Position numbers and translations under genes: made by a program | Origin: Microglena sp. YARC | Lineage: Eukaryota; Chlorophyta; Chlorophyceae; Chlamydomonadales; Chlamydomonadaceae | Length of the DNA stretch: 64,000 nucleotides | NCBI GenBank assembly: GCA_022414725.1 | Contig: CM039462.1 | Span: 50,011,876 to 50,075,875, forward strand | Direction of reading: 5' to 3' | Notes under the pieces: model-generated | What the model saw: only the letters and a program-made list of their open reading frames with translations | What the model was told of the DNA's origin: nothing | Databases searched by the model: none | In this document: positions 20,783-61,585 of the stretch, one piece after another | Position numbering within the stretch: position 1 is the stretch's first letter | How the letters are laid out: every line of letters begins with the position of its first letter

Positions 20783-21008
20783 TCGATTCTCTCCAGAAAC
20801 CAGCACTTACTCGGACCGGGACCGCTCCTCTGCTCTCACAATCGCAAGGCTGCACTGCATGGAACTGTTGGGTCAAGGGAGACCGCTTCCATTTTGCAGA
20901 GATGCGTGTTGTTGATGGGCTACAAAAAACATGATGGTGTTCCACTGCAATGTGGGTTGCTACACCATAAGGCACACACTCCGGTACACTCAAGAAAGCG
21001 GTTTCATT
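20783..21008 (+). mobile_element. Solo Fanzor 3' tail (plus orientation)
   Basis: This matches the 3' end of the Fanzor gene at 47.7 kb and continues through its downstream non-coding part. It starts in the RuvC-III region ([15 protein letters not shown] in translation), passes the stop, then reaches the conserved tail with GTGGGTTGCTACACC and ends at GCGGTTTCATT. The outermost TIR bases are missing. No transposase sequence remains, so this is a truncated derivative lying between two viral genes. Confidence 0.8.
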
Positions 21009-21029
21009 AATGATATTTAGCGGACGTCG

Positions 21030-26814: not shown

Positions 26815-29800
26815 TTAACGAGTTTCTACAGCTGACATTCGGGACAATAAGTCATTAATTTGCACATCCTTTTCTTGAATAGATTTGATTAAATATGGGA
26901 TAATCCCTGTGTAATTAACACAAGCCAAATTGGAGCCCCAATCTTTGTAATCAGGATCTATTCTTGGATCGGCTGAGGATGTTATAGGAGTTGAATGCAA
27001 TGCGTTACTATCTGCACCGTCTGGCAAGTTTATAATATGCCTCAATTCCGGGGCGTCATAGAATATCTCTTGTGCAATAAGACCAGACTCTCTGGTGGTG
27101 GTAATAACGTTACTATTATTAGAATTACTAGAATTGTCAATTTGGGATAGCTTGTCGTAAATCTGAGGTCTCAGCTTGTTAATAGTGGTTGTAGCATCTG
27201 TAATGAATTCTTCGTTTATCTTTATCCTATCGTCAGATGTTAGTACTGTTGAGTTCGCATATCCCGTGCCATAGGTCTTCGACCCCGTGCTGTTAGCTTC
27301 AAATTGTATTGCACCCGACACATGAAATGCGTGCTTAGCAGCTGCCGGTGCATTATACATTAATTTATTATCTTGTATACCGAACGAATATATGTACGGT
27401 GTTGTTTTTATATCCCCGAATAGAGCAATCTTGTTGGTATCTATTGTCATAGGGAATTGCAGGTGCCCCAAATCGGTAATTTTCAGCCTCTCGGTACCAC
27501 CTGTGCTAAAGCCCAGAGTGTCGGTAGTAACCATATACATACCGGTATTGGTATCGCCATTAAATGAATATGAGGGCCCACCAGCCCCTCCTGGCGTCCC
27601 TTGTATTTGTCCTGTAAGTGTCCCACCCGTCCGAGAATAAGCCGAATTAGCTGTATTATTAGCTGTATTATTAGCGGCATTGGCCAAATTATAAGCTGTT
27701 CTTACAGCATCGGAACTTGCAGCTACCGTACTAGATGTACTACTTACAGAAGAGCTAATACTTGTCTTCGGGAGCGCATTATTTGCTGTAGTATTAGCAA
27801 CGTCTGCCAAATTATAAGCTGTTCTTACAGCATCGGAACTTGCAGCTATCGTACTAGATGTGCTATTTGTCACAGAACTTGTGCAAGATCCTGTAAAACT
27901 GCTACAACTTAATATCCCAGTTACAGTTAATCCGCTAGAATTAATTGTAGCTATGTTGCCCCCTCCTGTAGCAAACCCTATTGAATCTGCAGCAACACGA
28001 TACATTCCCGTATTTGCATCAGTATCCCAAGAGTACCCTGGAGCAGTTACAGAATCGTTAGGGTTTACAAATAGATTGACTCCGCTTCCGAAGGTCATGT
28101 TACCATTGATCGTCGAAGGCCCAGAAGTTGAAAGAGATGCAAAGTTAGTTGTTCCTGTAAACGTTGGAGAAATACTCAAAACAACACTCCCTGTTCCGGT
28201 ACTGATGGAGACACCCGTTCCTCCTCTAGCAACGTCTAATGTTCCACTGGATATGTTGTTTGCGTTAAGGGCACCTAAGCCAGTACTGACTCCCGTGCCT
28301 CCATTAACAATCGCTAATATTCCACTGGATATGTTGGAAGCATTTAAACTGGTTATACTAGCTCCGCTACCCACTATCCCAGTGTTGTTTATAGTAGCTT
28401 TATTGACCCCGCCTACAGCAAACCCTATTGAATCTGCAGCAACACGATACATTCCCGTATTTGCATCAGTATCCAAGAGTACCCTGGAGCAGTTACGGAA
28501 TCGTTAGGGTTTACAAATAGATTGACTCCGCTTCCGAAGGTCATGTTACCATTGATTGTCGAAGGCCCAGAAGTTGAAAGAGATGCAAAGTTAGTTGTTC
28601 CTGTAAACGTTGGAGAAATACTCAAAACAACACTCCCTGTTCCGGTACTGATGGAGACACCCGTTCCTCCTCTAGCAACGTCTAATGTTCCACTGGATAT
28701 GTTGTTTGCGTTAAGGGCACCTAAGCCAGTACTGACTCCCGTGCCTCCATTAACAATCGCTAATATTCCACTGGATATGTTGGAAGCATTTAAACTGGTT
28801 ATACTAGCTCCGCTACCCACTATCCCAGTGTTGTTTATAGTAGCTTTATTGACCCCGCCTACAGCAAACCCTATTGAATCTGCAGCAACACGATACATTC
28901 CCGTATTTGCATCAGTATCCCAAGAGTACCCTGGAGCAGTTACGGAATCGTTAGGGTTTACAAATAGATTGACTCCGCTTCCGAAGGTCATGTTACCATT
29001 GATTGTCGAAGGCCCAGAAGTTGAAAGAGATGCAAAGTTAGTTGTTCCTGTAAACGTTGGAGAAATACTCAAAACAACACTCCCTGTTCCGGTACTGATG
29101 GAGACACCCGTTCCTCCTCTAGCAACGTCTAATGTTCCACTGGATATGTTGTTTGCGTTAAGGGCACCTAAGCCAGTACTGACTCCCGTGCCTCCATTAA
29201 CAATCGCTAATATTCCACTGGATATGTTGGAAGCATTTAAACTGGTTATACTAGCTCCGCTACCCACTATCCCAGTGTTGTTTATAGTAGCTTTATTGAC
29301 CCCGCCTACAGCAAACCCTATTGAATCTGCAGCAACACGATACATTCCCGTATTTGCATCAGTATCCCAAGAGTACCCTGGAGCAGTTACGGAATCGTTA
29401 GGGTTTACAAATAGATTGACTCCGCTTCCGAAGGTCATGTTACCATTGATTGTCGAAGGCCCAGAAGTTGAAAGAGATGCAAAGTTAGTTGTTCCTGTAA
29501 ACGTTGGAGAAATACTCAAAACAACACTCCCTGTTCCGGTACTGATGGAGACACCCGTTCCTCCTCTAGCAACGTCTAATGTTCCACTGGATATGTTGTT
29601 TGCGTTAAGGGCACCTAAGCCAGTACTGACTCCCGTGCCTCCATTAACAATCGCTAATATTCCACTGGATATGTTGGAAGCATTTAAACTGGTTATACTA
29701 GCTCCGCTACCCACTATCCCAGTGTTGTTTATAGTAGCTTTATTGACCCCGCCTACAGCAAACCCTATTGAATCTGCAGCAACACGATACATTCCCGTAT

Positions 29801-32800
29801 TTGCATCAGTATCCCAAGAGTACCCTGGAGCAGTTACGGAATCGTTAGGGTTTACAAATAGATTGACTCCGCTTCCGAAGGTCATGTTACCATTGATTGT
29901 CGAAGGCCCAGAAGTTGAAAGAGATGCAAAGTTAGTTGTTCCTGTAAACGTTGGAGAAATACTCAAAACAACACTCCCTGTTCCGGTACTGATGGAGACA
30001 CCCGTTCCTCCTCTAGCAACGTCTAATGTTCCACTGGATATGTTGTTTGCGTTAAGGGCACCTAAGCCAGTACTGACTCCCGTGCCTCCATTAACAATCG
30101 CTAATATTCCACTGGATATGTTGGAAGCATTTAAACTGGTTATACTAGCTCCGCTACCCACTATCCCAGTGTTGTTTATAGTAGCTTTATTGACCCCGCC
30201 TACAGCAAACCCTATTGAATCTGCAGCAACACGATACATTCCCGTATTTGCATCAGTATCCCAAGAGTACCCTGGAGCAGTTACGGAATCGTTAGGGTTT
30301 ACAAATAGATTGACTCCGCTTTTGAAGGTCATGTTACCATTGATCGTCGAAGGCCCAGAAGTTGAAAGAGATGCAAAGTTAGTTGTTCCTGTAAACGTTG
30401 GAGAAATACTCAAAACAACACTCCCTGTTCCGGTACTGATGGAGACACCCGTTCCTCCTCTAGCAACGTCTAATGTTCCACTGGATATGTTGTTTGCGTT
30501 AAGGGCACCTAAGCCAGTACTGACTCCCGTGCCTCCATTAACAATCGCTAATATTCCACTGGATATGTTGGAAGCATTTAAACTGGTTATACTAGCTCCG
30601 CTACCCACTATCCCAGTGTTGTTTATAGTAGCTTTATTGACCCCGCCTACAGCAAACCCTATTGAATCTGCAGCAACACGATACATTCCCGTATTTGCAT
30701 CAGTATCCCAAGAGTACCCTGGAGCAGTTACGGAATCGTTAGGGTTTACAAATAGATTGACTCCGCTTCCGAAGGTCATGTTACCATTGATTGTCGAAGG
30801 CCCAGAAGTTGAAAGAGATGCAAAGTTAGTTGTTCCTGTAAACGTTGGAGAAATACTCAAAACAACACTCCCTGTTCCGGTACTGATGGAGACACCCGTT
30901 CCTCCTCTAGCAACGTCTAATGTTCCACTGGATATGTTGTTTGCGTTAAGGGCACCTAAGCCAGTACTGACTCCCGTGCCTCCATTAACAATCGCTAATA
31001 TTCCACTGGATATGTTGGAAGCATTTAAACTGGTTATACTAGCTCCGCTACCCACTATCCCAGTGTTGTTTATAGTAGCTTTATTGACCCCGCCTACAGC
31101 AAACCCTATTGAATCTGCAGCAACACGATACATTCCCGTATTTGCATCAGTATCCCAAGAGTACCCTGGAGCAGTTACGGAATCGTTAGGGTTTACAAAT
31201 AGATTGACTCCGCTTCCGAAGGTCATGTTACCATTGATTGTCGAAGGCCCAGAAGTTGAAAGAGATGCAAAGTTAGTTGTTCCTGTAAACGTTGGAGAAA
31301 TACTCAAAACAACACTCCCTGTTCCGGTACTGATGGAGACACCCGTTCCTCCTCTAGCAACGTCTAATGTTCCACTGGATATGTTGTTTGCGTTAAGGGC
31401 ACCTAAGCCAGTACTGACTCCCGTGCCTCCATTAACAATCGCTAATATTCCACTGGATATGTTGGAAGCATTTAAACTGGTTATACTAGCTCCGCTACCC
31501 ACTATCCCAGTGTTGTTTATAGTAGCTTTATTGACCCCGCCTACAGCAAACCCTATTGAATCTGCAGCAACACGATACATTCCCGTATTTGCATCAGTAT
31601 CCCAAGAGTACCCTGGAGCAGTTACGGAATCGTTAGGGTTTACAAATAGATTGACTCCGCTTCCGAAGGTCATGTTACCATTGATTGTCGAAGGCCCAGA
31701 AGTTGAAAGAGATGCAAAGTTAGTTGTTCCTGTAAACGTTGGAGAAATACTCAAAACAACACTCCCTGTTCCGGTACTGATGGAGACACCCGTTCCTCCT
31801 CTAGCAACGTCTAATGTTCCACTGGATATGTTGTTTGCGTTAAGGGCACCTAAGCCAGTACTGACTCCCGTGCCTCCATTAACAATCGCTAATATTCCAC
31901 TGGATATGTTGGAAGCATTTAAACTGGTTATACTAGCTCCGCTACCCACTATCCCAGTGTTGTTTATAGTAGCTTTATTGACCCCGCCTACAGCAAACCC
32001 TATTGAATCTGCAGCAACACGATACATTCCCGTATTTGCATCAGTATCCCAAGAGTACCCTGGAGCAGTTACGGAATCGTTAGGGTTTACAAATAGATTG
32101 ACTCCGCTTCCGAAGGTCATGTTACCATTGATTGTCGAAGGCCCAGAAGTTGAAAGAGATGCAAAGTTAGTTGTTCCTGTAAACGTTGGAGAAATACTCA
32201 AAACAACACTCCCTGTTCCGGTACTGATGGAGACACCCGTTCCTCCTCTAGCAACGTCTAATGTTCCACTGGATATGTTGTTTGCGTTAAGGGCACCTAA
32301 GCCAGTACTGACTCCCGTGCCTCCATTAACAATCGCTAATATTCCACTGGATATGTTGGAAGCATTTAAACTGGTTATACTAGCTCCGCTACCCACTATC
32401 CCAGTGTTGTTTATAGTAGCTTTATTGACCCCGCCTACAGCAAACCCTATTGAATCTGCAGCAACACGATACATTCCCGTATTTGCATCAGTATCCCAAG
32501 AGTACCCTGGAGCAGTTACGGAATCGTTAGGGTTTACAAATAGATTGACTCCGCTTCCGAAGGTCATGTTACCATTGATTGTCGAAGGCCCAGAAGTTGA
32601 AAGAGATGCAAAGTTAGTTGTTCCTGTAAACGTTGGAGAAATACTCAAAACAACACTCCCTGTTCCGGTACTGATGGAGACACCCGTTCCTCCTCTAGCA
32701 ACGTCTAATGTTCCACTGGATATGTTGTTTGCGTTAAGGGCACCTAAGCCAGTACTGACTCCCGTGCCTCCATTAACAATCGCTAATATTCCACTGGATA

Positions 32801-33334
32801 TGTTGGAAGCATTTAAACTGGTTATACTAGCTCCGCTACCCACTATCCCAGTGTTGTTTATAGTAGCTTTATTGACCCCGCCTACAGCAAACCCTATTGA
32901 ATCTGCAGCAACACGATACATTCCCGTATTTGCATCAGTATCCCAAGAGTACCCTGGAGCAGTTACGGAATCGTTAGGGTTTACAAATAGATTGACTCCG
33001 CTTCCGAAGGTCATGTTACCATTGATTGTCGAAGGCCCAGAAGTTGAAAGAGATGCAAAGTTAGTTGTTCTTGTAAACGTTGGAGAAATACTCAAAACAA
33101 CACTCCCTGTTCCGGTACTGATGGAGACACCCGTTCCTCCTCTAGCAACGTCTAATGTTCCACTGGATATGTTGTTTGCGTTTCGTGAAAAGGTCTCAGT
33201 CGCTATGGGTGTGAGGGAGCCTTGCGGACCTATTACGAACGTGTTGTCCGACCCTAAAAAGAAGCTGATATTCGGGAGGAGGATGCGGGTGTCAATTTAA
33301 GATTTTTCACAAGGTTGACGTTGAAGAAGGACAT
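26815..33334 (-). CDS. S74 fibre protein F2 with 149-residue repeats, two one-base slips
   Basis: I place the start at ATG 33334, upstream of the long frame. It gives MSFFNVNLVKNLKLT, then needs one extra C near 33290 to enter RILLPNISFFLGSDNTFVIG and the repeat array. The array codes for twelve 149-residue units (GPSTINGNMTFGSGVNLFVN, then DTDANTGMYRVAADSIGFA). A single C is missing in the CCC of one unit near 28473, splitting the gene into two long frames. The C-terminal part has an Asn/Thr/Ala stem and an S74 domain with SDDRIKINEE, SGLIAQEIFYDAPELRH and a helical tail to 26815. SDxRxK holds the Ser and Lys used for self-cleavage in phage homologues. Full length is about 2,170 residues. 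Probably an adhesin or surface fibre. Confidence 0.85.
27970..33180 (-). repeat. Twelve near-identical 447-bp coding repeats
   Basis: The tetranucleotide after GGTCA recurs at 28098, 28544, 28991 and then every 447 bases to 33014. One interval is 446 because a C is missing near 28473. I see only about five substitutions among all copies, for example CTTTTGAAG for CTTCCGAAG near 30322. Near-identity implies very recent expansion, gene conversion, or strong homogenisation. Confidence 0.95.
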
Positions 33335-34615: not shown

Positions 34616-37600
34616 TTAATCAAGAAGACACTCGCAAACACATCCCGAAATGGTGAGCTTAGCTGTAGATGTATCAGATGCAGCAACTTGGCACTGATCG
34701 ATAGTGGGGGCATCACAGCTACACACACAAGATGAAGGAACAATAACTCTGCAACTTCCTGGGTTTCCTGGAGTTCCTGGGTTTCCTGGAGTTCCCGGGT
34801 TTCCTGGAGTTCCTGTGTTTCCTGTGTTTCCTGGAGTTCCTGGGTTTCCTGGAGTTCCTGGATTTACAGGGGTTTCTAGGTAGTCGGTTTGCGTCGGGGG
34901 AAAGATGTCATTGTAATCGACATACAGTAAACGGAATACTTAAATGAAACCGCTGCGTGTACGGCACACCTTGCGGTGTAACCTAATGTTGTCGCGACCA
35001 CCGGAGGGGGACCGAGTGGTGTCTACAACAATACGAGTTTTTATTCATCAACAACAACAGAGCTGCTGTGGGCAAATGGAAGAGGTCGTCCTAGACCCAT
35101 CAATTCCATGCAGTGCAGCCTTGCGATTGTGAGAGCAGAAGAGCGATCCCGGTCCGAGTAAATGCATGTTTATGGAGAGAATCGCAGTCCTCGTACCTCT
35201 GGGTACCGCTCGATCGATTTTTGAGAATCGACAAGGGAAGTGGAGAAGCCACCCCTCCTGTGCTTCTCTTGTGCGCCTTTACGTTTATTGCACAAGTTTT
35301 CCCCTAAGTGGTCGCAATCAGCGACCTTTGGCATCGTTTTCGATTTCGTGTGGACAAAACGTTCACCACCCAACCTAAGCTTCACGTCTGCTTAACAAAC
35401 GCTTGGGATCTTGTAAACACGTTCTTTTCTTTACACGTCTCCCACGACATAAGAGTCGTTTTGAACTCATCTGTCACAGAAACGTCCTCTTTGAAAATTC
35501 TTTTACACGATGCGAACATGGCCCCAGTGGGAACTGCAACTTCTCCCGGTCCAGTAGGCTTCAGTTTCGTGATGGCAGATCCGTAGGCCACGCAAACCTT
35601 CATATCAGGAAGTTCTTTCATCATGCACCGCTTGATACCCGCCCAGAAAGAGTCTTTGACCTTTCGTTTTCCGATGTAACGCTGCAAGTTGTCACGGGAT
35701 TCTCGGCGTCGCAAAGCCAATCTCCACCACTCGTCAGAAAACTTAGCGTAATTTGACAAGTACGCCGAGATCTTATCCGTCCTCGATGTACTCAAAGCTG
35801 CTCCATTTTCACGCAGAGACTCCCACATAGGAATCATGTCAGCAAAACGCAGTTCCTTCTGCCTTGTCTGCTTCTTGATACCCGACTTGTGGTAAAATGC
35901 ACCACGTGTCAGCGTCCATGTCTTATTTTTATCGTCTGCCAAATACGTTACCGTAGCGATGTTGCTCCGTCCTGGGTCCACACCCAGGACGACGATACCC
36001 ATATCGGGCAATATCGTTTTAAGTGAGCCGTCGTATTTTTCTGCGATCTTGATACCTTCTTCTTTACGAGGCTTCTTACAGGTCTTCTTCAGATCTGAGA
36101 CAAGGACCTGTACTGTCTTGCTGTACTGCATGCTCAAGGAGACTCCGTCAGTACAGATGCTGCAGTCGAAAACCCACCCATTCTTGATAGGTGGTTTTCT
36201 GAAGAAGGAACCTGCGACTGTTTTTCATGCGTTCACAAGCGTGTCATACAAACCCTTTGCATGTCTGTACTCGTCAGTAGCCTTGATATCCTAAACATCA
36301 TCATCGTACTGCTTCAGGACCGACTTGTATGCCTCCCATTCACCAGGACCACATGATTTTTTCTTCTTCTGTGCAGGCCTCTGGGGCAACATGAAGCTGT
36401 CGGGATTCTTTACATGTTCCCACTTGGAAAGCTCAACGATGTTCTGGTCATTGGGGAACATGTGCCTGAACAGGTTCACGAGGGTCTTCAGGTCAAGGCG
36501 AACATGCACCCGTTGGACATTGAAGATGGGCATCAATCGGATACGATGTGCATCCATATCCTCCAACCGTGTCTGTATCCAATAATTAAACCGGACCATG
36601 GTCGGAAAGTCCATGTCTTTGCCATAGTTATCATAAACTCGACTTCCATCTGGAACACTCAGCATCTCCCTAACTTCATTGACGTACTCTTGAACAGACT
36701 CTGGCCATCCCTCCATGTTTTGGACTTCTTGCCGAATAGCCCGCATCACGTCGTATCCCCGAATGATCTTCGATGTGTCCAGCGTCTTCAGGGCATTTAA
36801 TTTATTTAAAGTGGTGGAAGTGAGTCTGGCCAGACGTGGTATCAAAGGAACCCATGCGTTGTTTGACACGACAGTGCTCAATGTGTGACCTGCATAGTTC
36901 AATACCTGATCGAAATAGATCGGATAATACTTGATGTAGTCAGCGTCGTCATTACCAATTACATCGCCGATGGAGTCCTTCACAGCTTGGTACGATATCT
37001 TGCTTTCCTCATCATGGAAGATTCCGTCTACCCCGATACGGAGCCAATCCTTCCAGTAGGTATCTTTCATGTTGTACAGGTCTGGAATCTCCAGACCTTT
37101 CTCTAAGAGACTCGTGATGTGGAAAGTCAGCACCAGACTGGACCGCCGTAACATGCGGCTCACCACATTGACGAGCTGGTCCACATGCTCCCTAAACTTA
37201 CCAAATTCTTCATCGTCAAGACTCATTGCCTTCTTCAGGGCGCATTTCACGACACACATCTTTTCCACCGTCTTGTATTCTGGAGGGGTCTGGCGATGAG
37301 ACCATTGTCTTCGCATAAACGGACAAGATCGTCCTTGTTGGACTTCGACGAGTATGGTACTTCAGCCAATTTCAGTAGCTCCTTCAATTTCGCGACTGTC
37401 GGAGGTTTCGTCGCCATCTTCCATAATCAATACGTCACAGACCGCTTTATACACATAAGTGTTCCAAACGTGTTCAAAACAACCCATAATAATTTTATCA
37501 GTGAGGTTGCCGAATGCTAAGGAAATCATATCAGACACGTGTGTCTTTGTTTCATTCGGTATGTAGTTCAAACGACGAAAGTCTCTCTTCACCTTAGCGA

Positions 37601-38407
37601 AGCATAGCTCAATAGCATTGAATTCTGGACTGTAAGGAGGTGTGTAACAAATATTGACGGGGTGACTGAGGACCAATTTCTTATGGATACTGGCATTGTC
37701 CATTATTACTACTGAGTTATTGCACAAACTCAATGATTCAATAAATGCAACGAAGTCCGTCTTCTTCACAGATCCTTTCTTCACAACGAACTCTTTCCTA
37801 CCATCTGAAAAAACTGCCATCAACAAACTGTGGTGTACCCACCCACCAGTAGTTTTAACGATAACAGGTTTTCCTACAGGGGAATACCCATAATGTGGCT
37901 TGAGACGCTCACTAAACCCACATTCGTCAACTGATACTACAATTTTCCCAGCATTGATTGTCTCCTTGTACCTACTACAAAATTCATTGACAAGTGGAAA
38001 TAAGTCCCCTTTACACTGTCCATGGGGTTTGCTCCTTTTTCTTGTAAACCCAAGTAGATTAATGAAACGATACACTGTTTTAGTTGATAATCGTACATTG
38101 TGAGTACTTTTGAAAAAAGCAACAACGCCTCTTGCGGTTGTGCATTGAGTTGACAATAAAAACGATTTTAACAAATCCTTATTCGTCTCAAAAAGGTTGC
38201 TTACAAATTCACGTCGTTTTCGATTTACACCAAAGCGTTTCCACCTACACAGAGTAGAACGACTGATGTTCGTAAACACAGAAGTTTTTAACACACCCAA
38301 GTCAGCGACCATTCTTAACGCCAATTTTCTAACGGCGATGTCGTACATTTATTTCCATCTGATATATGTTTCATTTTACTGTTCCGCCGACTGTAGGTGT
38401 GCGCCAT
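34616..38407 (-). CDS. Collagen-like protein gene split by transposon
   Basis: The 5' exon-like piece is an ATG at 38407-38405 plus three codons; the rest lies at 34924-34616. A 3,469-bp transposon with TA duplications separates them. With one TA copy kept, the frame passes through a Tyr codon and continues to TAA at 34618-34616, giving about 106 residues. The middle is Gly-X-Y collagen-type repeat ([16 protein letters not shown]) and the C-terminus is Cys-rich (SCVCSCDAP and [10 protein letters not shown]). Collagen-like proteins decorate particle surfaces of several giant viruses. In the present arrangement the gene cannot be expressed whole. Confidence 0.8.
35041..37417 (-). pseudogene. 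Fanzor-type RNA-guided nuclease, damaged
   Basis: I place the start at ATG 37417, inside the 3' end of the transposase gene. The first 40 residues ([20 protein letters not shown], then [13 protein letters not shown]) look like a SAP DNA-binding motif. A frameshift near 37280 leads into a 340-residue helical recognition region. The frame then runs through TAG (36293-36291) and TGA (36227-36225) into [12 protein letters not shown], the RuvC-I motif [10 protein letters not shown], a [20 protein letters not shown] segment and DEFKTT. After another slip near 35388 come RGLRFSP, a TAA (35172-35170) and the RuvC-III motif [15 protein letters not shown]. This order is that of Fanzor1-type TnpB relatives. 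The usual CxxC zinc ribbon is not apparent. At the TAA the copy at 47.7 kb has GAA. Confidence 0.8.
37362..38348 (-). CDS. IS630/Tc1/mariner DDE transposase, intact
   Basis: The frame of 328 residues starts 45 bases inside the right transposon end. The N-terminus is helix-turn-helix ([16 protein letters not shown] and [14 protein letters not shown]). The catalytic triad is visible: [19 protein letters not shown] and [14 protein letters not shown]. Only 29 residues separate the second Asp from the Glu, fewer than the 34 usual for Tc1. The last 56 bases overlap the Fanzor start. It would excise and insert the element at TA sites through a hairpin-free cut-and-paste mechanism typical of the superfamily. 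It is one of the few undamaged genes in the region, so it may be active or recently arrived. Confidence 0.9.
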   Translation of the reverse strand: MYDIAVRKLALRMVADLGVLKTSVFTNISRSTLCRWKRFGVNRKRREFVSNLFETNKDLLKSFLLSTQCTTARGVVAFFKSTHNVRLSTKTVYRFINLLGFTRKRSKPHGQCKGDLFPLVNEFCSRYKETINAGKIVVSVDECGFSERLKPHYGYSPVGKPVIVKTTGGWVHHSLLMAVFSDGRKEFVVKKGSVKKTDFVAFIESLSLCNNSVVIMDNASIHKKLVLSHPVNICYTPPYSPEFNAIELCFAKVKRDFRRLNYIPNETKTHVSDMISLAFGNLTDKIIMGCFEHVWNTYVYKAVCDVLIMEDGDETSDSREIEGATEIG

Positions 38408-38589: not shown

Positions 38590-39006
38590 TTAGGCACGTT
38601 CTCCTCGGATTCTTCTTGCTAGCTTAAGATCCTTGGGCATTATTGTCACTCTCTTAGCGTGGATAGCCGCCAAGTTGCAGTCCTCAAAGAGGCCAACCAG
38701 GTAGGCCTCTGAGGCCTCCTGGAGGGCAAGGACAGCCGAAGACTGGAACCTAAGGTCGGTATTGAAGTCCTGTGCGATCTCTCGCACCAGCCTCTGGAAA
38801 GGCAACTTTCTAATCAGAAGGTCCGTAGACTTCTGGTACTTGCGGATCTCGCGCAGGGCGACGGTGCCGGGGCGGTAACGGTGAGGTTTCTTCACGCCAC
38901 CTGTGGCAGGTATGTTTGAAGCATGCTTGGACGCTTTTTGGGCTAGCTGCTTTCTGGGAGCCTTGCTACATGTGGACTTACGAGCGGTTTGCTTAACACG
39001 CGCCAT
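38590..39006 (-). CDS. Histone H3
   Basis: The 138-residue product starts [20 protein letters not shown] and keeps the whole histone-fold core ([65 protein letters not shown]). Compared with eukaryotic H3 it has Val for Thr3, Cys-Ser for Gly12-Gly13, and a two-residue-longer segment [14 protein letters not shown] in which Lys27 is replaced by His. The positions equivalent to Lys4, 9, 14, 18, 23 and 36 remain. No H4, H2A or H2B is in the window. An AAAAAATTGA motif lies about 80 bases upstream, which suggests viral early control rather than host contamination. It could package viral DNA or act on host chromatin. Confidence 0.95.
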
Positions 39007-39083
39007 TCGTGAGATATAGAGTTGGTGTGAGAGATAGAGATGTTGTGCTATTGTGTGCACTTTAATGAGATTGCCAAACGCAT

Positions 39084-39093
39084 TCAATTTTTT
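39084..39093 (-). promoter_or_regulatory. Mimivirus-type early promoter motif for H3
   Basis: AAAAAATTGA on the minus strand, 78-87 bases before the H3 ATG, contains the AAAATTGA motif known from early genes of mimivirus and relatives. Confidence 0.6.
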
Positions 39094-42575: not shown

Positions 42576-43311
42576 ATGAACGACAATGCGGCAGCAACCA
42601 CAACTATATGGCACGATGACCTACGCAGTTTCATGGGCACGACGGAAGCACTCTACAGTTTCGTACCCCTTTCAGGGATGCTCCTCACAGAGCAGCTGAC
42701 ATTCAGATTCTCCATATACTACGGCATCGCCGTGTGCATTTTCTGTGCCTCCCCCAAGGCGCTGCTAATTCCTGTTTTGACAGGTGCGCTGACCGCCGCG
42801 GTCCACCGATTTGACGTTGGCCAGCGAACGAACATGATCGAGATGATGCGCAACGAGGGGCTCAAACGTGACCCCGAGACGGCGAGGCTCTGTCGCGCGC
42901 CCACGTAAGAGGACCCGTTCATGAATCCTGCAATCGGTGACATGGGTGCAGTGCTGGTGGGAGGGACGCGCCCCCCTTGCGACATCACGCGTCCGTCGGT
43001 CCGAAAGCGAGTTGACAAACTCTTCCACGGCGATAAATGGCAGGAGCCGCACGATGTGTTCAAACGCAACTCCGGCTTCCGCAAGTTTTACACTGTTGCC
43101 GCCCCCAACGACCAGGGCGCCTTTGCGAACTTATTTATTTCCATCTGATATATGTTTCATTTTTTTTTATTTCCATCTGATATATGTTTCATTTTACTGT
43201 TCCGCCGACTGTAGCGGAGGTAACCCCAAGGAAAACGATGCTGCTGCTGACGATGCTGTTGCTGATGATGAAGAGGACGTGCTTGGGGACAATGATGAGG
43301 GGGAACAATGA
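42576..43311 (+). CDS. Conserved giant-virus protein (DUF5762-like), interrupted twice
   Basis: From ATG 42576 the frame has two hydrophobic spans (around YYGIAVCIFCASPKALLIPV), then CRAPT, a TAA at 42906-42908, and without a shift EDPFMNPAIGDMG, VFKRNSGFRKFYTVAAPNDQ and GAFAN. In the family I compare it with (DUF5762, from memory) PT..NPFMN and RqFYT...iPNDQ..FA.WLYG are continuous, so the TAA is a lesion. Just after FAN a transposon end (43130-43211) is inserted. Beyond it GGNPKENDAAADD and an acidic tail continue to 43311. Damaged as read; a virion assembly role is plausible but unproven. Confidence 0.65.
43130..43211. mobile_element. Solo B-type transposon end
   Basis: TTATTTCCATCTGATATATG with its following TTTCAT appears twice in tandem. 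It then runs into ACTGTTCCGCCGACTG, identical to the right (transposase-side) end of the element at 38393, followed by TA. It lies within the C-terminal coding part of the DUF5762-like gene. No internal element sequence remains. Confidence 0.85.
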
Positions 43312-45007: not shown

Positions 45008-45103
45008 GTGAGGTACACTTGGGGGTGGCGCATGTGGTACACTTGGGTTAGGTACAGTTTGAGCATGTGGTGCGCTTGGGTTAGGTACAGTTTGAGCATG
45101 TGG
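45008..45103. repeat. Short GT-rich tandem repeat beside transposon derivative
   Basis: GAGCATGTGGT with TTGGGTTAGGTACAGTTT recurs about three times with a period near 33 bases. It ends at the TA of the adjacent derivative. On the minus strand it would extend the methyltransferase-like gene by about ten residues if the element were absent. Confidence 0.7.
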
Positions 45104-45105
45104 TA

Positions 45106-45441
45106 CACTCGACGGAATACTTAAATGAAACCGCTTTCTGGAGTGTACAGTACACCTTATGGTGTAGCAACCCACATTGCAGTGGAAATTTGAAAAATGC
45201 AACAATACCTCTTGCGGTTGTGCATTTAGTTGACAATAAAAACGATTTTAACAAATCCTTGTTCGTCTCAAAAAGTTTGCTTACAAATTCACGTCGTTTT
45301 CGATTCACACCAAAGCGTTTCCACCTCCACTGTGTGCGCGGGAAGACGGGCTTACTCATGCGCAGACAAACGGAGGCAGCTTCGTCAAGCAGGCGGATGT
45401 GGCGTACATGAAGCGGTTTCATTTTAGTATTCCGTTGACTG
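45106..45441 (-). mobile_element. Non-autonomous derivative of the mariner-Fanzor element
   Basis: The element is 336 bp, flanked by TA (45104-45105 and 45442-45443). Ends: CACTCGACGGAATACTTAAA and, inverted, CAGTCAACGGAATACTAAAA. Inside are about 70 bases of the Fanzor-side tail joined to about 135 bases of the transposase N-terminal coding region ([15 protein letters not shown] in translation). Both ends are type A. It is fully non-coding and would depend on transposase supplied in trans. Confidence 0.9.
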
Positions 45442-46224: not shown

Positions 46225-46608
46225 ATGCCACCGACTCACCAGGTCATTCAGGCAATAAGGGTTGCCATGCCACTCGAAGGAACTGAGCCTTATAAGTTTT
46301 ATGAGAAGGGCGTTAAAACTTTGGCGGATGTAAAGGAGTACCTGCGCACATGGTTCATCCGCCAACCAGGGGGGTACTCAAGGGAGTGGGATGGCGCCCA
46401 CTACACATTGGTCATGGGGTTTAGACGGGGCTTCTGCAGTCACCGGGTGTTTGTGGACACCGACACCTGCCGCTACATTTTCACATGTGATGAGGAGAAG
46501 GAGATTCCTCCTTTTGTCACTGGGGAGTTCTCTTCCTTCGAGGCCGTAATACACGATATTGCAGCATATTTTGCCAAGGTGTGGAAGATACACTCGACGG
46601 AATACTAA
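46225..46608 (+). CDS. Hypothetical protein truncated by transposon end
   Basis: An ATG at 46225 opens 127 residues with a globular alpha/beta composition (EWDGAHYTLVMGFRRGFCSH and FVDTDTCRYIFTCDEEKE). The final HSTEY and stop come from the type-A transposon end starting at 46591, so the native C-terminus is lost. No family is recognised. Confidence 0.6.
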   Translation: MPPTHQVIQAIRVAMPLEGTEPYKFYEKGVKTLADVKEYLRTWFIRQPGGYSREWDGAHYTLVMGFRRGFCSHRVFVDTDTCRYIFTCDEEKEIPPFVTGEFSSFEAVIHDIAAYFAKVWKIHSTEY

Positions 46609-46800
46609 AATGAAACCGCTTACTGGAGTGTACGGTACACACACCTTATGGTGTAGCAACCCACATTGCAGTGGAACACCATCATGTTTTTTGTAGCCCA
46701 TCAACAACACGCATCCCTGCAAAATGGAAGCGGTCTCTGACTTTGGTGTACTGAAAACTTCCGTGTTTACGAACATCAGTCGGCTTCTGATTGACAATCC
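46591..46800. mobile_element. Rearranged transposon relic
   Basis: TA at 46589-46590 precedes a type-A end (CACTCGACGGAATACTAAAA) and the Fanzor-side tail through ATGGAAGCGGTCTC. There the sequence switches to transposase N-terminal coding sequence in the opposite orientation ([15 protein letters not shown] on the plus strand). The right boundary is unclear. The head-to-head arrangement indicates inversion or template switching. Confidence 0.7.
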
Positions 46801-47585: not shown

Positions 47586-48386
47586 CACTCGACGGAATAC
47601 TTAAATGAAACCGCTTTCTGGAGTGTACGGTGCACCTTATGGTGTAGCAACCCACATTGCAGTGGAACACCATCATGTTTTTTGTAGCCCATCAACAACA
47701 AGCATCCCTGCAAAATGGAAGCGGTCTCCCTTGACCCAACAGTTCCATGCAGTGCAGCCTTGCGATTGTGAGAGCGGAGGAGCGGTCCCGGTCCGAGTAA
47801 GTGCTGGTTTCTGGAGAGAATCGCAGTCCTCGTACCTCTGGGTACCGCTTGATCGATTTGTTGTCGACAAGAGAGGGGGCTAAGCCACCCCTGCTGTGTT
47901 TTTCTTGGATTTTTTTACGTGTGCAGTACACCCTCACTGCCAACTGGTCGCGGTAAGAGACCTTTGGAGTCTCCTTCAATGGGGTGTGACCCAACAACTC
48001 GTAACCTAGACGAATCTGACCTTCTGTGGTTATTTGGACACTTGGAATCTTGTAAACACATTCCTTCTTGGCACCGGTTTCCCAAGACATGAGAGTCGTC
48101 TTGAACTCATCTGTCACATGAACCTCCTCTTTGAAGAGGCGCTTGCAGGAAGCGAACATAGATCCCGTAGGCACAGCTACCTCTCCTGGTCCGGTAGCCT
48201 TCATCGTCTTGATTGCAGAACCATATGCGATGCGAACTTCTAGTGTGAAAAAGATTGAACTTCTCGGCGAAACGCGAGAGGTCGCTCTCTCCCAAAGACT
48301 TGGTGGGGTGTAAGCAAGAATCAGTTGTTCCTGGAAGCGTTCACATCGCGGTCCCAAGTATTCCCGCAGTGTAGCCTGGCCCAACT
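47586..48386 (-). mobile_element. 5'-truncated copy of the mariner-Fanzor element
   Basis: TA at 47584-47585 precedes a type-A end, the conserved Fanzor-side tail and the Fanzor C-terminal coding region up to about 48270. The other end is missing. Similarity to the 61.5-61.6 kb relic (CTTCTCGGCGAAACGCGAGA) occurs near 48262. The copy abuts the stop of the capping enzyme gene. Confidence 0.8.
47692..48384 (-). pseudogene. Fanzor C-terminal half, open frame
   Basis: A continuous frame of 230 residues matches the damaged Fanzor at 35041 from VRIAYGSAIKTMKATGPGEV through [13 protein letters not shown] to [20 protein letters not shown] and GQGRPLPF. It holds the RuvC-III Asp but lacks RuvC-I, so cannot cut DNA by itself. 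It is undamaged over the region where the 35041 copy has a stop and a frameshift, which makes it the better template for the family. The first 40 residues appear to be unrelated junction sequence. Confidence 0.75.
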
Positions 48387-57675: not shown

Positions 57676-58261
57676 CAGTCGGCGGAACAGTAAAATGAAA
57701 CATCAAAAAAACGGTATTAAATGGGCGTTCCTGCCTCCCGGCAAATTTTGACTGGTTGCGAAACATGGTCTGGAGCGGATTTGTGATTCCTCGGTGCTGA
57801 TGTCTCAAGCTAGAGAGTCATTCAGGAGGCTCTAAATCCTGATTAGAAATTTAGTAAAATCGGCCGGGAGGCAGGAACGCCCATTATTAGGCGGTGACAA
57901 TCATATTGTATGAGTGGATGGTCCTATAAAATGACCCGTCCAACAAAGAAACCTCCTTTCATGACGCATTGCACATAAACAAAGACCCCGTGTTCTTTTG
58001 GGCCACGGTATTGGGGAAGAGGCGATCGCTTAAGTGCGGCTGGTCCTTCAATGGACACTCTCGAAAGTACCTACAAAAAAACGATACGGAGTCTGCAGGA
58101 TGGAGAGCCGTGATCTAAAAAAGAACCACTATATTCTCGTTAACATCCTGCAATTTGTTGATTCAAAATCGTATTGGTGTTCCACTGCCCCGTGGGTTGC
58201 TACACCATTAGGTTACACCGTAAGGTGTGCCGTACAAGAGGTGGTTTCATTTCGTCGACTG
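57676..58261 (+). mobile_element. Non-autonomous mariner-Fanzor derivative with nested MITE
   Basis: TA flanks both sides (57674-57675 and 58262-58263). The left end is type B (CAGTCGGCGGAACAGTAAAA) and the right end is a type-A tail with GTGGGTTGCTACACCATTAG and TTTCATTTCGTCGACTG. It is 586 bp including MITE copy 3. No transposase or nuclease coding sequence remains. The order of end types shows an internally deleted copy of the 34925 element in inverse orientation. Confidence 0.85.
57720..57885. mobile_element. MITE copy 3 (4-bp TSD ATTA), nested
   Basis: The element is 166 bp with inverted ends AATGGGCGTTCCTGCCTCCC and GGGAGGCAGGAACGCCCATT. ATTA lies on both sides (57716-57719 and 57886-57889). 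It sits inside the 57676 mariner derivative and is therefore the younger insertion. Confidence 0.95.
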
Positions 58262-58348
58262 TAACTTACATGGACAAAGTAGCCTGAAAAGTCAAATTGT
58301 TGTCTCACGTTACTATGTCGCCGACTGTAAAATCCAGTTAGAGTCAAA

Positions 58349-61356: not shown

Positions 61357-61515
61357 AACAACACGCAGCCTTGCACCGGGAAAATGGAAGCGGTCTCCCT
61401 AGACCCAACAGTTCCATGCAGTGCAGCCTTGCGATTGTGAGAGCAGAGGATCAATTTCTTGCAGTTGTTCTCAAATAAAGTGGGACACACCTTATTTTAC
61501 TGTCTGTTCCGCCGA
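61357..61515 (-). mobile_element. Chimeric relic: Fanzor tail plus B-type end
   Basis: 61357-61448 matches the Fanzor 3' coding tail (GGAAGCGGTCTCCCTAGACC). At 61492-61515 TTTTACTGTCTGTTCCGCCG with ACTG resembles the B-type end with a three-base insertion and TA replaced by CA. Next, 61526-61600 matches the 48.3 kb copy. This is a scrambled remnant between TnpB and TFIIB. Confidence 0.65.
61461..61492 (-). promoter_or_regulatory. GGTGTGTCCCA / GAGAACAAC motif
   Basis: On the minus strand AAGGTGTGTCCCACTTTATT is followed by TGAGAACAACTGCA. It is the same motif as at 9817 and 38462, located upstream of the TnpB fragment. Confidence 0.4.
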
Positions 61516-61585
61516 CTGCAGAGAGGAACTTCTCGGCGAAACGCGAGAGGTCGCTCTCTCCCCAAGAATTGGTGGAGTGTAAGCA

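Follow-up and report, generated by a model that had tools for sequence, protein, structure and literature searches.

A TA-flanked mariner-type transposon joined to a broken Fanzor1-type gene in a sequence of likely giant-virus origin

Results

Content and boundaries of the element

The window analysed here is a stretch of 64,000 nucleotides (nt) of contig CM039462.1 (GenBank assembly GCA_022414725.1, Microglena sp. YARC; positions 50,011,876 to 50,075,875). It includes a transposable element, designated E0, in which an intact transposase gene is joined to a broken gene of the Fanzor1 type, and seven derivatives of the same family, E1 to E7 (Table 1). In E0, the genes are read from the minus strand in the order transposase, Fanzor, with ~116 non-coding nt from there to the element end, and the end of the transposase open reading frame (ORF) overlaps the start of the Fanzor gene in a different frame. 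A first-pass annotation of the window had described the locus as a mariner-type transposon carrying an RNA-guided nuclease gene, and the joining of a Tc1/mariner-type element to a Fanzor1-type gene is supported by the ends, the transposase and the Fanzor1 homology.

Table 1. Element E0, its parts and its derivatives in the 64,000-nt window.
Feature	Positions	Strand	Basis or remarks
E0, whole element	34925..38393	-	transposase-side end 38393, Fanzor-side end 34925
TA target-site duplication, Fanzor side	34923..34924	.	read from sequence
TA target-site duplication, transposase side	38394..38395	.	read from sequence
L-type terminal inverted repeat	34925..34950	+	end comparison and pattern search with shuffles
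R-type terminal inverted repeat	38368..38393	-	end comparison and repeat search with shuffles
DDE transposase, intact, IS630/Tc1/mariner type, 328 residues	37362..38348	-	Pfam, NCBIfam, alignment
Fanzor1-type gene, broken	35041..37417	-	two frameshifts and four in-frame stops relative to P0069; start overlaps transposase 3' end by 56 nt
Non-coding 3' region, Fanzor stop to element end; candidate omegaRNA/reRNA scaffold (inferred)	34925..35040	-	similar region in five other copies
Collagen-like gene, body; the start codon apparently lies on the other side of the insertion	34616..34924	-	rejoined-flank frame
Collagen-like gene, first four codons	38396..38407	-	rejoined-flank frame
E1: TA-flanked R end, the inner part of which is repeated as a 31-nt copy; no partner end found	43133..43211	-	repeat searches
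E2: non-autonomous copy of 336 bp with TA at either side; both ends L-type; contains the 3' region and a transposase remnant (94% over 142 nt) but no match to Fanzor coding sequence	45106..45441	-	
E3: TA-flanked L end and 3' region, with no more than the final few codons of Fanzor; 5' end not found	46591..46782	-	Fanzor codons judged by eye
E4: TA-flanked L end and 3' region plus the last ~180 residues of a second Fanzor; 5' truncated	47586..48243	-	
E5: non-autonomous copy of 586 bp from R end to L end, TA at either side; retains the 3' region, without a match to Fanzor coding sequence	57676..58261	+	
E6: partial R end (TG flank, not TA) fused to Fanzor tail	61378..61518	-	
E7: Fanzor tail and 3' region, degraded L end	20784..21023	+	

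The ends of E0, CAGTAAACGGAATACTTAAATGAAAC and CAGTCGGCGGAACAGTAAAATGAAAC, are imperfect inverted repeats (20/26 identical over the first bases), and E0 has the combination of duplicated TA and inverted repeats by which Tc1/mariner-IS630 transposons are recognised. The R-type end also occurs exactly at 43186-43211 and 57676-57701, and three matches were reached in none of 100 shuffled sequences. The L-type pattern, with up to two mismatches allowed, was found at 34925 and at four more places in the window, and five matches were likewise reached in 0/100 shuffles. On the 5' flank, a cytosine stands directly before the TA in all four TA-flanked copies with a placed 5' end (E0, E1, E2 and E5), against a background of 0.19-0.21, an observation made post hoc. 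The GC content of E0 is close to that of its left flank and hence says little.

When the flanks of E0 are joined over one TA, an ORF results in which the right flank supplies the ATG and three further codons and the left flank 102 codons with collagen-like repeats. As the rejoined flanks form an open frame and its left part contains no Met codon, the insertion appears to have occurred after codon 4 and to have separated a collagen-like gene from its start codon. The mapped ends reported in the first-pass annotation stand, but what was termed empty-site evidence is a deduction from the reading frame over the joined flanks, and no empty allele was seen.

Transposase

The transposase matches Pfam family DDE_3 (E 1.1e-24) and scores 110 bits against the NCBIfam IS630 model, for which the cut-off is 100. 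In an alignment of the window sequence with 20 of its 62 relatives, D141, D217 and E247 are invariant in 21/21 sequences, and the spacing from the second Asp to the Glu is 29 residues by manual count. Hence, the protein is of the DDE_3/IS630 type and has the catalytic triad expected of Tc1/mariner-IS630 transposases. The C-terminal ~25 residues are unmatched by most of the 62 relatives. A search of IMG/VR with the transposase alignment identified eight loci with 27-29% identity. The earlier description of TA duplications, related but unequal ends and an intact DDE transposase is thus confirmed.

State and family of the Fanzor gene

The reference used for the Fanzor gene is P0069, an uninterrupted metagenome relative of 792 residues (97% identity, query coverage 96%). 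Judged against P0069, the copy in E0 is a pseudogene, with shifts of frame near 37286 and 35427 in addition to the four in-frame stops. An intact Fanzor gene in E0 was rejected on account of these frameshifts and stops, and introns are not favoured as the source of the breaks because homology to P0069 continues without a gap of intron size. The RuvC-I and RuvC-III motifs reported at first pass are present but lie in different frames, so that they do not belong to a working gene, and the description of E0 as a complete viral copy was wrong for the same reason. Over 117 codons of the C-terminus, the ratio of non-synonymous to synonymous substitution rates (dN/dS) between E0 and E4 is 0.39 (NG86) or 0.25 (YN00). 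The Fanzor C-terminus has therefore been under purifying selection in the past, E0 itself being a pseudogene.

Assignment to Fanzor1 was made at the level of a profile. Searches of solved structures with the window Fanzor piece alone returned two unrelated matches at chance level, those with an N-terminal Fanzor profile returned no match, and P0069 as a single sequence reached the Guillardia theta Fanzor1 at E 0.68 only. A profile of 67 chosen relatives matched the G. theta Fanzor1 (9cer) at E 8e-10, with the Spizellomyces Fanzor (8gkh) second at E 0.019, and the strongest matches fall on the parts around TDG and DPG. By profile, the family is thus homologous to proven Fanzor1 proteins. Signature residues of Fanzor1 were counted in alignment A5 among the members without a gap at the position concerned. 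The TDG motif of the WED domain is present at 66/66, 65/66 and 65/66, the DPG at RuvC-I as Asp in 65/65, Pro in 64/65 and Gly in 65/65, and the alternative RuvC-II Glu in 65/65; the Asp of the RD motif is found in 63/63. D481, E651 and D758 are invariant in the 65, 65 and 63 aligned members, respectively, that have no gap there. The N-termini of 4 of 15 members match a HeH/LEM domain (E up to 0.05, best 1.8e-6).

Loss of the zinc finger

The window Fanzor copy lacks the C4 zinc finger that is part of the Fanzor1 definition in the available portion of PMC3627910. The finger was scored by alignment column in 97 of 98 Fanzor relatives (P0001 was left out), 86 of which have both DPG and RD while 11 are incomplete. 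Only P0150 and P0153 have all Cys columns filled, and their finger lies at the expected place, seven residues past the alternative Glu and immediately ahead of the RD motif. Cys occupies positions 1, 2, 3 and 4 in 5, 2, 46 and 2 of the 97 sequences, respectively, and the Cys at the third position is likely a relic of the finger.

In a FastTree tree, P0150 and P0153 are sister to the other 93 members, with a support of 0.998 for the 93-member clade and 0.779 for the 95-member node. A single loss of the finger at the base of the 93-member clade would be the simplest reading, although the root is placed on just the two most distant relatives, P0164 and P0165, both of which are short. Part of the ribbon is kept in P0164, whose match to the TNB domain (E 0.02) stays below threshold. 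No Fanzor lacking the zinc finger was found among the papers listed in literature searches, which is not proof of absence, and the word 'zinc' does not occur in the available portion of PMC11423790. What appears to be new here is a Fanzor1 branch, delineated by alignment, that has kept the TDG, DPG, alternative Glu and RD residues and lost the C4 zinc finger.

Derivatives in the window

Of the seven derivatives, five share the 3' region of E0, and three, one of them only in part, keep the R end. E2 and E5, which have the 3' region and no Fanzor coding match, resemble the ghost loci of Saito et al. as described in the available part of PMC10432273. E3 includes a rearranged transposase fragment at 46732-46782 on the plus strand. 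The second Fanzor C-terminus in E4 belongs to an uninterrupted ORF of 230 residues (47692-48384), the last ~180 of which are diverged and do not include RuvC-I. By eye, the interior of E5 appears to contain an inverted repeat of its own, GGGCGTTCCTGCCTCCCGGC and its complement. Beside E2, at 45039-45105, there is an apparent short repeat with a step of 33 bases that shares the 3' flank of E2.

Guide-like matches were sought elsewhere in the window. Sites with three mismatches were found for E0, E3 and E5 and none for E4, while for E2 the matches (one and three mismatches) are 33 and 66 bases away, in the apparent short repeat. A scan against Rfam gave five weak matches only, all far below gathering scores.

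Linkage of the two genes outside the window

One protein of another dataset, P0020, matches the transposase over residues 1-191 (74%) and the Fanzor 3' end, out of frame, over residues 191-250 (44%, E 4.4e-9). Its simplest reading would be an internal deletion in a diverged copy of a two-gene element of the E0 type. Together with E4 and E6, in which Fanzor tails are joined to element ends, P0020 links the transposase or its ends with Fanzor, and the first-pass proviso that the two genes might never co-occur elsewhere, making the unit a chance pair, therefore does not hold. DNA relatives of the E0 family were not found in phage records, IMG/VR or GTDB genomes.

Genomic neighbourhood

Protein families were sought in 39 distinct ORFs of the 61 listed (at least 150 residues). 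The products include an mRNA capping enzyme encoded next to an N7-methyltransferase, TFIIB, one or more cold-shock proteins and histone H3, and S74- and fibre-like matches fall short of the curated cut-offs. The ORFs are long and in a single frame, and 22 of the 39 have no Pfam match at E 0.01. No capsid, polymerase (B) or packaging-ATPase family was found among the 39. The histone H3 gene (38590-39087) lies beside the E0 insertion, and its product closely resembles the H3 of eukaryotes (E 1.1e-72 for the best PDB match). Relatives of two genes neighbouring E0 were not found in IMG/VR. A long coding stretch of near-identical repeats at 28425-33300 is open on both strands (1556 and 1592 residues).

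Discussion

Proposed mechanism and alternative readings

Taken together, E0 is probably a cut-and-paste transposon of the Tc1/mariner/IS630 type whose lineage carries a Fanzor1 nuclease that would act as outlined below. The intact transposase frame, the duplicated TA and the insertion after codon 4 of the collagen-like frame point to such an element, as do the derivatives, which have lost one or both genes while retaining ends, parts of genes or the 3' region. The transposase would excise an element of the E0 type and insert it at TA. A full copy would produce an RNA from the 3' region that extends slightly past the element end into flanking DNA, and this RNA would guide Fanzor to the rejoined empty site, where a motif ending in (C)TA is followed by the guide sequence. 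Repair of the cut from the element-bearing genome would then keep the element or copy it onto empty sites, for example in other viral genomes within one cell. Derivatives that retain only the ends and the 3' region would be mobilised in trans and could provide additional guides. Given that its Fanzor is dead, E0 itself could at most move by its own transposase or use a Fanzor in trans.

Several findings weigh against this proposal. The Fanzor of E0 is broken and no intact one was seen within the window, and linkage with the transposase outside the window depends on one protein, P0020, the only one of the 62 transposase relatives with a match to the Fanzor 3' end at a threshold of E 1e-3. A weaker R-like end at 58327 is preceded by T before the TA, and the R end of E6 has no TA. 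Evidence for a structured RNA is weak, with folding z-scores of the 3' regions of -1.82 for E0 (34925-35043), -0.21 for E4, -1.06 for E3, -1.81 for E5 and +0.97 for E7; a single compensated pair occurs in the outer helix, a number that 96/500 shuffles reached, and RNAalifold gave two compensated pairs with an unfavourable covariation term of +0.78. Finally, as the zinc finger was lost in this branch, activity cannot be carried over from the Fanzors that have been tested.

The most serious alternative, though an unlikely one, is that Fanzor is a neutral or declining passenger of a mariner element that moves by its transposase alone, the gene being lost as in E0. A whole transposase next to a broken Fanzor would be expected in that case, and E2 and E5 do look non-autonomous and have no Fanzor coding DNA. 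However, dozens of Fanzor relatives are long and uninterrupted, their D-E-D residues do not vary among gap-free members, dN/dS between E0 and E4 is below 1, and the 3' region and, less often, the R end have been kept in the derivatives. The same invariant residues make it improbable that loss of the zinc finger, missing from 95 of the 97 relatives by alignment column, turned the branch into an RNA-guided DNA-binding regulator, as a protein that does not cut would not need them. That the mariner element and the Fanzor gene lie side by side by chance would agree with the finding that none of 103 Fanzor-type proteins matches a transposase relative, which also counts against the proposed linkage, but P0020 joins an E0-type transposase to an E0-type Fanzor 3' end, E6 combines a partial R end with a Fanzor tail and E4 a Fanzor tail with an L end, and coincidence is hardly credible.

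A different question is the source of the DNA. Instead of coming from a free giant virus, the window might belong to a eukaryotic chromosome or to an integrated virus, with the element a host transposon, and both the eukaryote-like histone H3 and the lack of capsid, polymerase and packaging-ATPase families among the ORFs scanned would fit. This is nevertheless rather improbable in view of the long single-frame ORFs, more than half of them without a Pfam match, the capping enzyme beside the N7-methyltransferase, TFIIB, the cold-shock proteins and the sub-cut-off S74- and fibre-like matches. A giant virus is thus the likely source, as the first-pass annotation had it, but it is not proven, with no hallmark gene among the ORFs scanned.

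Beyond the cut-and-paste transposon with a Fanzor1-carrying lineage, a wider model can be offered only tentatively, and we regard it as doubtful. In it, a mariner transposase is accompanied by a Fanzor1 branch that lost its zinc finger once and kept the full catalytic triad, and the two form a two-tier viral system, in which full elements would give transposase and nuclease, miniature ghosts would give ends and extra guide RNAs, and empty sites would be cut and refilled during co-infection.

Comparison with known systems

If the branch without the zinc finger cuts DNA, that part of the target-binding domain would be dispensable in Fanzors, and P0150 and P0153, which kept the finger, offer a ready comparison. 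As the ghost-like derivatives lie in one window with a transposase and a Fanzor gene of their own family, the role of Fanzor for the transposon becomes more testable.

The sources cited here are compared on the portions of their texts available. RNA guidance, reRNAs that run beyond the target-site duplication and ghost loci were described by Yoon et al. and Saito et al. (PMC10711439, PMC10432273). Spu-1, the element of SpuFz1, is similar to the E0 family in its Fanzor1 homology, in ghost-like copies with ends and 3' region, and in the conservation of one or more bases ahead of the 5' repeat (compare CATA for SpuFz1 with the C before TA in the E0 family). However, whereas E0 carries a transposase, none was detected inside the Spu-1 repeats, and SpuFz1 has a CCCC zinc finger that the E0 branch is without (PMC10432273). 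The Fanzor1 proteins of insect viruses share the TDG, DPG and alternative Glu signatures, but the E0 branch has lost the zinc finger, and their reRNAs, which run ~15 nt beyond the target-site duplication, have as counterpart here a candidate RNA region (PMC10711439). The Submariner miniature inverted-repeat transposable elements of Pandoravirus salinus are likewise TA-flanked, mariner-type and non-autonomous, and have multiplied in a giant virus, some of them within genes; the related transposon was located in the amoeba host, whereas the window studied here itself encodes an intact transposase (PMC4495683, in the available text of which 'Fanzor' does not occur).

The closest system is PGv-1, a Mariner element with Fanzor1 in Phaeocystis globosa virus, which was reported with relatives such as HMa-1 by Bao and Jurka in 2013 (PMC3627910). 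Like E0, PGv-1 is flanked by TA and holds both a Mariner transposase and Fanzor1; its carrier is an algal virus, and the core of the present claim was therefore already known. By description, PGv-1 differs in also having a GIY-YIG endonuclease, and the Fanzor motif given in that work includes the C4 zinc finger that is absent in the E0 branch. E0 is thus a further case of a known pairing, in which the Fanzor branch departs from the published motif at its zinc finger.

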